DNA of 34,533 nt from Paracoccaceae bacterium (GTDB taxonomy: Bacteria; Pseudomonadota; Alphaproteobacteria; Rhodobacterales; Rhodobacteraceae): contig JALTNO010000309.1 of NCBI GenBank assembly GCA_027000645.1, positions 1 through 34,533 of the forward strand. Direction: 5' to 3'. Of this stretch, positions 30,162 to 34,533 are shown one piece after another; the stretch's first letter is position 1; each line of letters begins with the position of its first letter. The position numbers were made by a program, and so were the translations under genes. The notes under the pieces were generated by a model that did not search any database, was not told the DNA's origin, and saw only the letters and a list, made by a program, of their open reading frames with translations.

Positions 30162-31076
30162 TCAGTCGGGGGCGTTCAGGATCTGCCGGAACTCGCGCCA
30201 CTCGCGCGCGCTCAGGCCGGAATTTTCCTGCGTCACCGCCTCGCCCTTCAGCATCCGGCGCAGGCAGGCCAGCATCTGCGCGGAAAGGTTCACCGCGCCA
30301 AGGCGGTAATCCTCGAACGCCCGGTAGGCGAAGGGAACCCAGTCGGCGACGATGCGACAGATTTCCTCGGCATAGACGCGGATTTCGTACTGGGCATGGG
30401 CATCCGCCCGCAGCCGCAGGAAATGGAACAGATTGTGCAGGTCCACCTTCCAGTACCACTGGGTATAGATGTTCATCGGCAGGTTCATCCGGGCCAGTTC
30501 GCGGGCCAGGCCCTGCTGGCCATCCTGGCCGATCATCTGTTCGTAATGATCGTAGCAGCGCGCCGAATCGGCCTTGAGGATCTCCAGCACCCGCGCGGCC
30601 TCATCCCCCTCCAGCACTTCGCCCCGGCCCTGGTTGTTCACCTTCGACTGAGCCGCCACATGCTCGGGCGCGGGGATGTAGAATTCCCGATCCAGGATCG
30701 AATAGCGCGCCGAGTATTCGTTCACGTTGGCGGTGCGATGGCGGATCCACTGCCGGGCCACGAAAACGGGCAGCTTCACATGCAGCTTGATCTCGCACAT
30801 CTCGAAGGGGGTCGAATGCCAGTGCCGCATGAGATAGCGGATCAGCCCTTCGTCGTTCTGGACCGAGCGCGTCCCCTTGCCGTAGGACACCCGCGCTGCC
30901 TGGCAGATCGCGGCATCATCGCCCATGTAGTCGATCACCCGGACGAAACCGTGATCCAGAACCGGATGCGCAAGGTACAGGTGCTTCTCCATCCCTTCGG
31001 CCACGGCGCGCAAGGTCTGGCGCGGCTGCGACCGGAGGGCATCGATTTCGGCCTGTTGTTCGGGGGACAGGGGCAT
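30162..31076 (-). CDS. thyX: FAD-dependent thymidylate synthase
   Basis: ThyX motif [15 protein letters not shown] in a 304-aa product. Confidence 0.97.
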
Positions 31077-31267: not shown

Positions 31268-32182
31268 ATGAAGCGGTTTTCGGCAGGCGTCGCGGCGTTC
31301 GTCGCGCTATCGGCATGTAGTGGCGGCAACCCGTTCGCCCCGACGACAGGCGGCGGAACGGGGACCGGAACCGGTGCGCCATCGATCCCGGCAGACCTGG
31401 CCGGCGATCTGACCAGTTTCACCTATGACCCGGTGGCCCAGACCCTGATCGTGCGCGGGGTCAGCCTTGACGACACGCCGTTCGAGGCGGTCTATACCCG
31501 CAAGCCGGGACTCGACCGGCAGGGGTACGAGGCCTACACCTCGCAGGAAAGCTCTCTGGGGCGGCACACCACGGCCTATGTCAGGGCCAGGGACGGGGTG
31601 AGTGCCGCGATCACCGTCTCCGGCGAACAGTTCGGCCAGTACTACGGCGGCAGCGGCTACGGCCGCGACGGCAGCTACTCGCCTCCCGATACCACCGTTG
31701 CCGGAGGGCTGGTCTCCTATGCGGGGGGCTATGTGGGCCTTCTGAACGCGGCGGGCAGCGGCGAAGACCTGTTGCCGGTGACGCCGGGCACGCCGACCGA
31801 CATCCTGCCCACGCAGGCGGCAGAAGTGGTGGGCGACATCTTCATCACCGCCGATTTCGCCGACAACACGGTGAACGGCATCGTCTACAACCGGGTGATC
31901 GCGGACACGGCGACGGCGGTCGAGAACCTCGAACTTGCGGGCGCCCCGATCGATGCCGATGGCACATTCACCGGCGACGTGACGCAGGACGCCGGCGCAC
32001 AGGTGGTCGGCACCTATGGCGGCATATTCGGCGGCACCGGAGCCAGCGCGGTGGCGGGAACCCTGTTCAGCCAGGGCCATATCGGCGCCCTTCCCGGCAC
32101 GGTCGAGGAATATGGCGTCTTCGTTCTCGAGAACTGCGGTGGAGCAGGTGCCGATCCGGTTTGCACCCAGCCGCGCCCGTGA
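31268..32182 (+). CDS. Predicted lipoprotein with C-terminal TbpB-like beta-barrel domain (candidate Slam substrate)
   Basis: Lipobox LSAC (MKRFSAGVAAFVALSACSGG), Gly/Thr linker, C-term GTFTGDVTQDAGAQVVGTYGGIFGGTGASAVAGTLF resembling the TbpBBD motif. Confidence 0.78.
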   Translation: MKRFSAGVAAFVALSACSGGNPFAPTTGGGTGTGTGAPSIPADLAGDLTSFTYDPVAQTLIVRGVSLDDTPFEAVYTRKPGLDRQGYEAYTSQESSLGRHTTAYVRARDGVSAAITVSGEQFGQYYGGSGYGRDGSYSPPDTTVAGGLVSYAGGYVGLLNAAGSGEDLLPVTPGTPTDILPTQAAEVVGDIFITADFADNTVNGIVYNRVIADTATAVENLELAGAPIDADGTFTGDVTQDAGAQVVGTYGGIFGGTGASAVAGTLFSQGHIGALPGTVEEYGVFVLENCGGAGADPVCTQPRP

Positions 32183-33566
32183 CCTGCTGCGCGCCGCGCT
32201 GCTCGCAACGGGGCTGATTGCCCCGGCAACGGGTGTTGCGGCAGAAGAGGAGAGCTTCACGCTCAGTCTGGCCCAGACGCGCCAGCTTGCGGTGCTGGCG
32301 CTGCAATCGGGCGATCTGGGCCTCGCCGTTCGCGCGGCCGAGGGGCTGCTTCAGGCGAACCCCGGCGATCCCTTCGCCCACTACGTCATGGCCGCGGCGC
32401 TCTTGCAGCTTGATCGCCCCGAGCCCGCCCGCGGGGCCGCCGCCCGCGCCTATCGCAACGCGCGTACCGGACCGGACCGGTTCGGCGCCGCCCAGCTTGC
32501 CGCGCGCGCGGCCTATGTCGGAGGCCATCCGACGCTGGCCCAGCTCTGGTTGCGCCGCGCGGCAATCCACGCCCCGGATCGGCGCGCCGAGGCGGTGGTG
32601 GCACGTGACTATCGGGTGTTGCGCCGGCAAAACCCGTGGGCCTTCCGCCTGCGGGCCGAGATGCGCCCGTCGAGCAATGTCAACAAGGGGGCGGATTCGG
32701 CGCTTCAGATCATCGACGGAGTGCCCGTGACCGGATGGCTTTCGGGCGCGGCGCAGGCGCTTTCGGGCCTGATCGGATCGGCGGACATCCAGTCCAGCTA
32801 TCGCTTTCGCCAGACGCGGGACAGCGCCACATCGCTTGCCGGCCGCCTTTACGTGCAGCGCGTGGCCCTGTCGGCAGAGGCCCGCGCCATCGCCCCCCGC
32901 GCCCGCAATGGCGACTATGCCTCGACTTTCGTCGAAATGTCGTTGCGCCACGGCTTCCGCGCCGGCCCGCGCGAGAGGGGCGGCACGGCGGCATTCGCCT
33001 TTGCCGGCGGCGAATCCTGGTGGGGCGGATACCGCAGTTTCCGCTATGCGAGGCTGAGTGCCGAACGCGACTGGCAACTGGGCGCAACCCGCGTGGACCT
33101 TCGCGCATTGGCCGAGAGGCGCTTCATGGCACGCTATTCGGTCAACGATGCCCGCATCCTGGAGTTTGGTGCCGAAATCGACCGCCCGCTTGCCAATGGC
33201 GACCGGCTGTCATGGACGCTGGCCTGGCGCGACACCGATGCGCGCCACCCCAACGGTACCTATCGGTCGGCCTCGATGCGGCTGGGTTATTCCTTCGGGC
33301 AGCCGGTGGGGCCGGTGCGGCTCAGCGTCGGGCTGGTGCTGGGCTGGTCCGACTACCCGGTGTTCTGGTCCGGCGGCTTCATCCGGGTTCCCGGCGGGCG
33401 GCAGGACAGGTCGGCCTATGGCGATGTCAACATGCTGTTTTCCAGGTATGATTACGCCGGCTTTGCCCCCATGCTGCGGCTGCGCGCGGGACGGAAGGAC
33501 TCCAACGACAGCCGCTACAGCATGAAGGAATTCTCGATTTCGCTCAGCATGGAATCGAAGTTCTGA
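32112..33566 (+). CDS. Slam-like outer-membrane protein (periplasmic TPR + DUF560 beta-barrel)
   Basis: Signal peptide-like N-term, TPR-like repeats (LALQSGDLGLAVRAAEGLLQANPGDPFAHYVMAAALLQ), FRLRAEMRPSSNVNKGADSA at barrel start, alternating strands ending in aromatic F (SISLSMESKF). Start uncertain (ATG 32112, GTG 32139 or 32148). Confidence 0.78.
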   Translation: MASSFSRTAVEQVPIRFAPSRARDLLRAALLATGLIAPATGVAAEEESFTLSLAQTRQLAVLALQSGDLGLAVRAAEGLLQANPGDPFAHYVMAAALLQLDRPEPARGAAARAYRNARTGPDRFGAAQLAARAAYVGGHPTLAQLWLRRAAIHAPDRRAEAVVARDYRVLRRQNPWAFRLRAEMRPSSNVNKGADSALQIIDGVPVTGWLSGAAQALSGLIGSADIQSSYRFRQTRDSATSLAGRLYVQRVALSAEARAIAPRARNGDYASTFVEMSLRHGFRAGPRERGGTAAFAFAGGESWWGGYRSFRYARLSAERDWQLGATRVDLRALAERRFMARYSVNDARILEFGAEIDRPLANGDRLSWTLAWRDTDARHPNGTYRSASMRLGYSFGQPVGPVRLSVGLVLGWSDYPVFWSGGFIRVPGGRQDRSAYGDVNMLFSRYDYAGFAPMLRLRAGRKDSNDSRYSMKEFSISLSMESKF

Positions 33567-33635: not shown

Positions 33636-34064
33636 ATGGCACTGAGATATCTTCACACGATGGTTCGCGTGAAAGACCTGGAAAGATCCATGGCATTTTA
33701 CGAACTTCTCGGTCTGAAACAGACCCGCCGGTATGACAGCGAAGAGGGGCGATTCTCGCTGATCTTCATGGCGCCGCCGGGGCAGGAGGAGTGCCCGATC
33801 GAACTGACCTGGAACTGGGACGGGGACGAGGGCCTGCCCAGCGACAGCCGCCATTTCGGGCATATCGCCTATGGCGTGGACAACATCTACGACATGTGCC
33901 GGCACCTGATGGAAAACGGGGTGACGATCAACCGGCCGCCGCGCGACGGGCGCATGGCGTTCGTTCGCTCGCCCGACAACATCTCGATCGAACTTCTGCA
34001 GAATGGCGACCCTCTGGAGCCGGCCGAGCCATGGGTCAGCATGGAAAATATCGGGCACTGGTGA
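33636..34064 (+). CDS. gloA: Lactoylglutathione lyase (glyoxalase I)
   Basis: MALRYLHTMVRVKDLERSMAFYELLGLKQTRRYDSEEGRFSLIFM..ELTWNWD..FGHIAYGVDNIY. Confidence 0.94.
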   Translation: MALRYLHTMVRVKDLERSMAFYELLGLKQTRRYDSEEGRFSLIFMAPPGQEECPIELTWNWDGDEGLPSDSRHFGHIAYGVDNIYDMCRHLMENGVTINRPPRDGRMAFVRSPDNISIELLQNGDPLEPAEPWVSMENIGHW

Positions 34065-34423
34065 TCGCGGGGGCGGTGGCGGCCGCCCTGTCACAGCCGG
34101 TCGCGGCCGCCCCGGCATGCCGGCTGGCGCTGGTCCTTGCGATCGACGTGTCCTCTTCGGTCGATGCGGTCGAGGACGCGCTGCAGCGGCGCGGGCTGGC
34201 CGCGGCCCTGATCGCGCCCGATGTACAGGCCGCGTTTTTCGCATCCCCCCTGCCGGTCGCGCTGGCCGCCTATGAATGGAGCGGACGGGACAAGCAGGCC
34301 CTGCTGCTCGACTGGCGCCTGATCGAAACTCCGGCCGACCTGGCGGTGGCGGCCCGGACGCTGGGGCAATCGCGCCGGGGATACGACGACTACCCGACAG
34401 CAATGGGCTACGCGCTTGGCTAG
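34031..34423 (+). pseudogene. DUF1194 (VWA-like) protein, 3' truncated by apparent insertion
   Basis: MGQHGKYRALVIAGAVAAALSQPVAAAPACRLALVLAIDVSSSVDAVEDALQRRGLAAAL..YPTAMGYALG*; MIDAS-like DVSSS; ends abruptly with TAG at a composition switch. Confidence 0.7.
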
Positions 34424-34533
34424 TCACCTGGAACTGTAATCCGTATCATACTCGTATGTGGGTTTTGGAGGTGGTGCGATGGTTCGGGGTGTTGCGGATG
34501 CGGTGGTTCTTAGCGCCGAGGAACGGGTATTTC
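34423..34533 (+). mobile_element. Left end of an IS element (IS630-type suspected), runs off window
   Basis: Composition switch after TA at 34421-34422; RBS-like GGAGG then ATG at 34479. Confidence 0.6.
34479..34533 (+). CDS. Transposase N-terminus, IS630-like (partial)
   Basis: MVRGVADAVVLSAEERVF resembles IS630-family transposase starts; only 18 codons visible. Confidence 0.55.
   Translation, partial: MVRGVADAVVLSAEERVF

Follow-up and report, generated by a model that had tools for sequence, protein, structure and literature searches.

The 34,533-nucleotide contig of a Paracoccaceae bacterium analyzed here (the window; JALTNO010000309.1) carries, at positions 31268–33566 of the forward strand, a gene for a lipobox-containing lipoprotein that overlaps a gene for a protein with TPR repeats and a predicted outer-membrane barrel. 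This arrangement raises the question whether the two proteins are the substrate and the translocator of a secretion system of the Slam type, as the original prediction held. Both open reading frames are indeed found at this place and on this strand, and the motifs quoted in support of the prediction, VVGTYGGIFGG...VAGTLF and MRPSSNVNKGADSA, are present. Both are also conserved as proteins, with the closest relatives showing 60% identity for the channel and 59% identity for the lipoprotein, so that the observation goes far beyond what could be expected by chance. The analysis described below indicates that the two genes very probably represent a translationally coupled T11SS (Slam, DUF560 family) cargo/translocator cassette of the 'cluster 3' kind found in marine Rhodobacteraceae, with the lipoprotein predicted to be translocated and anchored at the cell surface.

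The lipoprotein gene (31268–32182, forward strand) starts with an ATG and encodes a protein of 304 aa, which the lipobox, the family matches and the fold of the AF2 model identify as a predicted T11SS/Slam cargo. The sequence and its conservation delineate a signal peptide with the lipobox LSA-C (residues 1–17; 31268–31318, forward strand), ending in the predicted lipid-anchored Cys17, which is invariant in all 104 aligned relatives, although this invariance is slightly favored by the way the sequences were selected: the start codons were picked with the lipobox in view, and seven of the 111 cargo loci, which are cut by a contig end or have no clear lipobox, were mostly excluded from this alignment. 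Searched alone, the window lipoprotein produced only sub-threshold matches to slam_lipo (NF041636, E = 0.0019) and TbpB_B_D (E = 0.029). With a permissive cut-off, slam_lipo is matched by 50 of the 104 homologues (best E-value 3.5e-9), FHBP_C by 35 (1.1e-6) and TbpB_B_D by 31 (6.2e-7). The AF2 model built from the alignment (pLDDT 90.4) shows, besides a disordered linker, two folded parts: a beta domain at the N-terminal side and an eight-strand barrel at the C-terminal side. The secondary structure of this model places a predicted handle or effector domain at residues ~41–145 (31388–31702, forward strand) and the eight-stranded barrel at residues ~146–290 (31703–32137, forward strand), with strands running from 148–162 to 280–289; the TbpB_B_D and slam_lipo matches fall within the barrel. 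The top 50 matches in a PDB fold search with this model are all fHbp, TbpB, NHBA or the haemophilin HphA, that is, the fold as modeled is that of the known Slam/T11SS cargo. The proposed TbpB-like C-terminal barrel is thus borne out at the family level by the profiles, the model and the PDB matches.

The cargo C-termini are of two kinds, one ending in ...ETGGFI(L/V)xR and the other with a Cys-x(n)-Cys tail, each represented in 31 of 76 sequences. The window cargo belongs to the second kind (32130–32182; ENCGGAGADPVCTQPRP), in which the tail might be closed by a disulfide.

In its combination of a handle domain, an eight-strand barrel and a lipobox, the cargo resembles TbpB, fHbp and HpuA of Neisseria, which are often encoded beside Slam. 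TbpB, however, has two lobes and works in the context of the TonB-dependent receptor TbpA, whereas the window cargo has one barrel and no receptor is encoded among its neighbors. A related cargo fold is also found in the TXISS-1B/haemophilin systems (HrpB-HrpC, HphA; PMC8406197), HphA being among the matches of the window cargo. The cargos of those systems are soluble proteins processed by signal peptidase I (PMC8406197), unlike the lipobox-containing window cargo, and the window cargo family further differs from them in the lack of haem-uptake genes nearby and of a conserved His in the consensus of the cargo alignment. Haem binding via a conserved His, considered as a candidate function, is accordingly unsupported, the mature cargo proteins containing a mean of 1.6 His each. 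The pair is not flanked by any receptor, haem or iron genes, the neighbors being thyX, a glyoxalase gene and a DUF1194 gene, in agreement with the initial remark that a transferrin-binding context is missing.

The channel gene (32139–33566, forward strand) has its best start at the GTG at 32139 and encodes a 475 aa protein with the C-terminus ...SKF; an in-frame alternative GTG at 32148 agrees with the start of the closest homologue. When compared to Pfam alone, the window protein showed no match to SlipAM (PF04575), only to TPR families (TPR_19, E = 7.6e-4). It was not matched in a PF04575 search of the window's own genome either, a single-protein search against the PDB gave no match, and a search of genome contigs for related loci with this protein as the query found no relative. 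Membership was therefore judged from family profiles. A homologue search yielded matches in 12 of 41 genomes, including the window's own, and 11 of the 12 channel homologues scanned match PF04575 (best E-value 1.9e-10). Comparison of the channel profile (A3, 117 members) with a reference profile of nine strong SlipAM proteins (A4; E-values from 1e-22 to 1e-36) using hhalign revealed similarity with a probability of 100 and E = 5.4e-44 over 395 columns that span both the TPR and the barrel regions. Hence the assignment to DUF560/Slam in the original prediction holds at the family level, but the window protein on its own remains unmatched.

The AF2 model of the channel, obtained with A3 (mean pLDDT 94), shows seven TPR-like helices at residues ~44–164 (32268–32630, forward strand), the predicted periplasmic domain, which together with the TPR_19 match confirm the TPR assignment. 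These are followed by 14 long strands of a predicted outer-membrane barrel at residues 167–473 (32637–33557, forward strand), with the PSSNxN motif at its start and a Phe at its end. The barrel-opening motif is conserved, N180, N182, G210 and P444 are invariant in the A3 alignment, and 115 of the 117 channel proteins have the C-terminal Phe. Additional matches to the T3SS chaperone SctY and to PrsT reflect generic TPR similarity. In a PDB fold search with this model, BcsC and PelB, which are TPR-barrel exporters or porins, came out best, no Slam structure is present among the PDB matches listed for it, and one member of the channel family weakly matches PGA_TPR_OMP. These similarities would fit a polysaccharide-export porin of the BcsC, PgaA or PelB type, with the lipoprotein as a periplasmic accessory factor. 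Such porins have a 16-strand barrel and are encoded near genes for polysaccharide synthases or modification enzymes. Among the neighboring ORFs examined, there is no polysaccharide synthase gene; furthermore, the match to the SlipAM profile extends over the full length of the protein, the fold of the lipoprotein encoded alongside is that of T11SS cargo, and the barrel contains 14 strands, as predicted for the Slam barrel (PMC5449769). We consider this possibility highly improbable and, on the basis of the strand number and the Slam profile match, reject the identification of the channel as a polysaccharide porin. The domain architecture is that of Slam, which consists of a TPR N-terminal domain and a predicted 14-strand DUF560 barrel (Hooda et al. 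2017, PMC5449769), both features being common to the window channel and Neisseria Slam1/Slam2. Compared to the Slam1/Slam2 pairs of Neisseria, the window pair shows very low sequence identity, contains a single-lobe cargo, lacks a transferrin receptor or iron context, and has a function that is predicted here.

The lipoprotein and channel genes overlap by 44 bp, or by 35 bp if the later GTG at 32148 is used. Among 120 homologous channel loci gathered by family-level sampling, a gene of the lipoprotein family is located directly upstream of the channel gene in 111 (~93%), which, together with the overlap, supports the proposed Slam substrate/translocator gene organization. An additional locus (L159) encodes a divergent lipoprotein upstream of the channel, which was recognized by its lipobox, lies outside the cargo HMM and was counted separately. 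At 108 of the 111 loci, the spacing from the cargo stop codon to the channel start falls within -95 to +32 bp, which makes co-translation of the two genes probable. According to the matches listed for 298 genomes, 135 genomes have both a strong channel match and a cargo match, 9 the channel only, 3 the cargo only and 151 neither (Fisher p = 3e-69, a value to be taken as descriptive because the cut-offs, E ~1e-30 for the channel and ~1e-10 for the cargo, were chosen after viewing the match lists and the cargo model was built from channel-adjacent loci).

The pair can, nevertheless, be separated: a small number of translocator genes (e.g., at locus L144) stand without a cargo gene beside them, and in two genomes (G306 and G133) the cargo occupies the site without an adjacent translocator. 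One could accordingly propose that the lipoprotein faces the periplasm, that the adjacency of the two genes is a matter of operon history only, and that the translocator serves cargo encoded elsewhere. The near-exclusive co-occurrence of cargo and channel, the coupled gene order, the joint divergence of the two proteins (see below) and the barrel fold that the cargo has in common with verified Slam cargo all argue against this proposal, which we regard as very improbable.

By analogy with the characterized systems, the Slam-type channel most likely exports the lipoprotein encoded by the overlapping gene. In characterized Slam systems, the cargo is exported by Sec, lipidated and transferred to the outer membrane, its unfolded barrel is held by Skp, and it then crosses through Slam and becomes anchored at the surface (PMC9090332, PMC5449769); Slam has been found to move TbpB in proteoliposomes with Skp (PMC9090332). 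Taking translocation, surface exposure and the order of steps from these precedents, the window lipoprotein would leave the cytoplasm via Sec, receive its lipid at Cys17 and reach the outer membrane via the Lol pathway, with Skp as the holdase. Next, the translocator would use its TPR domain to capture the still unfolded C-terminal eight-strand barrel of the cargo and its 14-strand barrel to let the cargo through to the outside of the cell; there, the cargo would remain lipid-anchored, with its N-terminal domain exposed. A Skp/OmpH gene is present in the window's genome.

The gene neighborhood of the pair includes, upstream, thrS (threonyl-tRNA synthetase), a cold-shock gene and thyX (30162–31076, reverse strand; TIGR02170, 9.9e-63) and, downstream, a gloA-like glyoxalase I gene (33636–34064, forward strand; PF00903, 2e-18; glyox_I, 7.7e-28) and a DUF1194 gene (34031–34423, forward strand; PF06707, 2.2e-29). 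Both thyX and gloA lie outside the cassette and are conserved at cassette-free sites. In a sister genome of the same genus (G001), whose thyX and gloA are 90% identical to those of the window, these genes are 197 bp apart, the slot between them is empty, and an intact DUF1194 gene follows. The gap is shorter than 450 bp in 48 of the 59 cassette-free genomes with thyX and gloA on one contig. Several cassette-free genomes hold an unrelated gene in the slot, such as DUF817, suggesting that this site is variable. Genes of similar sequence occupy it at loci L186, L187, L188 and L190; the copy scanned, that of L187, encodes a DUF817 protein (PF05675).

The DUF1194 gene of the window (region 34031–34533; L174, 4424–5456) is truncated, with the match covering only positions 1–101 of the 206 in the model. 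Its frame ends at 34424, and about 110 bp further on there is an N gap in the scaffold, the two sides of which resemble reverse complements, with an IS transposase-like ORF beyond; the truncation is probably due to an insertion element or a mis-join.

Grossman et al. (2025; PMC12282271) reported a locus of this type in Rhodobacteraceae/Roseobacteraceae, where it represents the marine cluster 3 T11SS; according to these authors, no T11SS had been described previously in this group. In their Fig. 8, the locus carries the locus tags of the marine strain Ruegeria pomeroyi. The published locus shares with the window thyX, an SPII cargo lipoprotein, the T11SS outer-membrane protein, lactoylglutathione lyase and DUF1194, and the cluster 3 co-occurrence list also includes threonyl-tRNA synthetase and the cold-shock gene that are found upstream in the window. 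The predicted SPII cargo of cluster 3 is 282–375 aa long, with a C-terminal eight-strand barrel (PMC12282271). The window comes from another genome and differs in its truncated DUF1194, and is a further example of this locus type.

One possibility raised for cluster 3 is that the cargo or partner of the translocator is DUF1194, a vWA-like protein (PMC12282271), rather than the lipoprotein. DUF1194 is indeed encoded near 79 of our 120 translocator loci, as it is in 102 of the 145 loci of PMC12282271. However, among 77 genomes that lack the translocator, at least 43 also have it beside gloA (within 1.5 kb), including the sister genome with the empty slot, and in the window it is truncated, yet cargo and translocator are intact. 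With DUF1194 as cargo disfavored by the cassette-free sites, there is little to recommend this interpretation, and the lipoprotein remains by far the better candidate. The retention of thyX, gloA and DUF1194 at cassette-free sites points to a conserved neighborhood into which the cassette was inserted or from which it was lost, and co-occurrence of these genes with the T11SS need not, therefore, imply a common function; they look like conserved neighbors rather than T11SS partners. This indicates that the reported association of cluster 3 with thymidylate synthase, glyoxalase and DUF1194 mainly reflects the conserved synteny of the insertion slot.

By domain count, TbpBBD domains were reported in only 8 of 145 cluster 3 loci, whereas 10 of 11 syntenic loci proved to encode cargo when inspected; three reasons were proposed for the scarcity, namely that cargo is not co-encoded, falls below the threshold or has been lost (PMC12282271). 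The present survey bears on whether cluster 3 channels seldom meet cargo, carry sub-threshold cargo or lost it: the presence of cargo at 111 of 120 loci supports the view that it is nearly always there, below the usual detection thresholds. The result is a pair of cargo and channel that is simple and lends itself to testing, in bacteria for which, as of PMC12282271, no T11SS had been described before.

With the thyX distance removed, a correlation remains between the pairwise distances of the cargo and those of the channel (partial r 0.37–0.45, not reached in any of 500 permutations), whereas the correlation of gloA distances with those of cargo or channel is about zero. The median corrected distances are 1.4–1.7 for the cassette and 0.25–0.31 for thyX and gloA. 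This joint divergence could fit either faster divergence alone or exchange. Going further, cargo and translocator might form an exchangeable lock-and-key cassette in the fixed thyX-gloA slot of marine Rhodobacteraceae, with a joint divergence that is some five- to sixfold that of the neighbors and independent of it, which would suggest that alleles are exchanged or that the exposed lipoprotein is under strong selection (by phage, grazer or algal host), and that its ligand is unlike those of known Slam cargo; we put this forward as a tentative and somewhat doubtful scenario.

In three genomes, a lipoprotein of the cargo family is found alone in the thyX-gloA slot (G192, G306 and G133; loci L183, 1916–2830, L194, 1649–2761, and L195, 1644–2768). 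G306 and G133 carry other SlipAM proteins elsewhere, so the lone cargo may be served in trans. In L194 (4019–4609) and L195 (3972–4598), small ORFs for lipoprotein-like or secreted proteins with barrel-like sequence are located beyond thyX; a Pfam scan of the L194 ORF gave no match, and these ORFs could encode further T11SS cargo.
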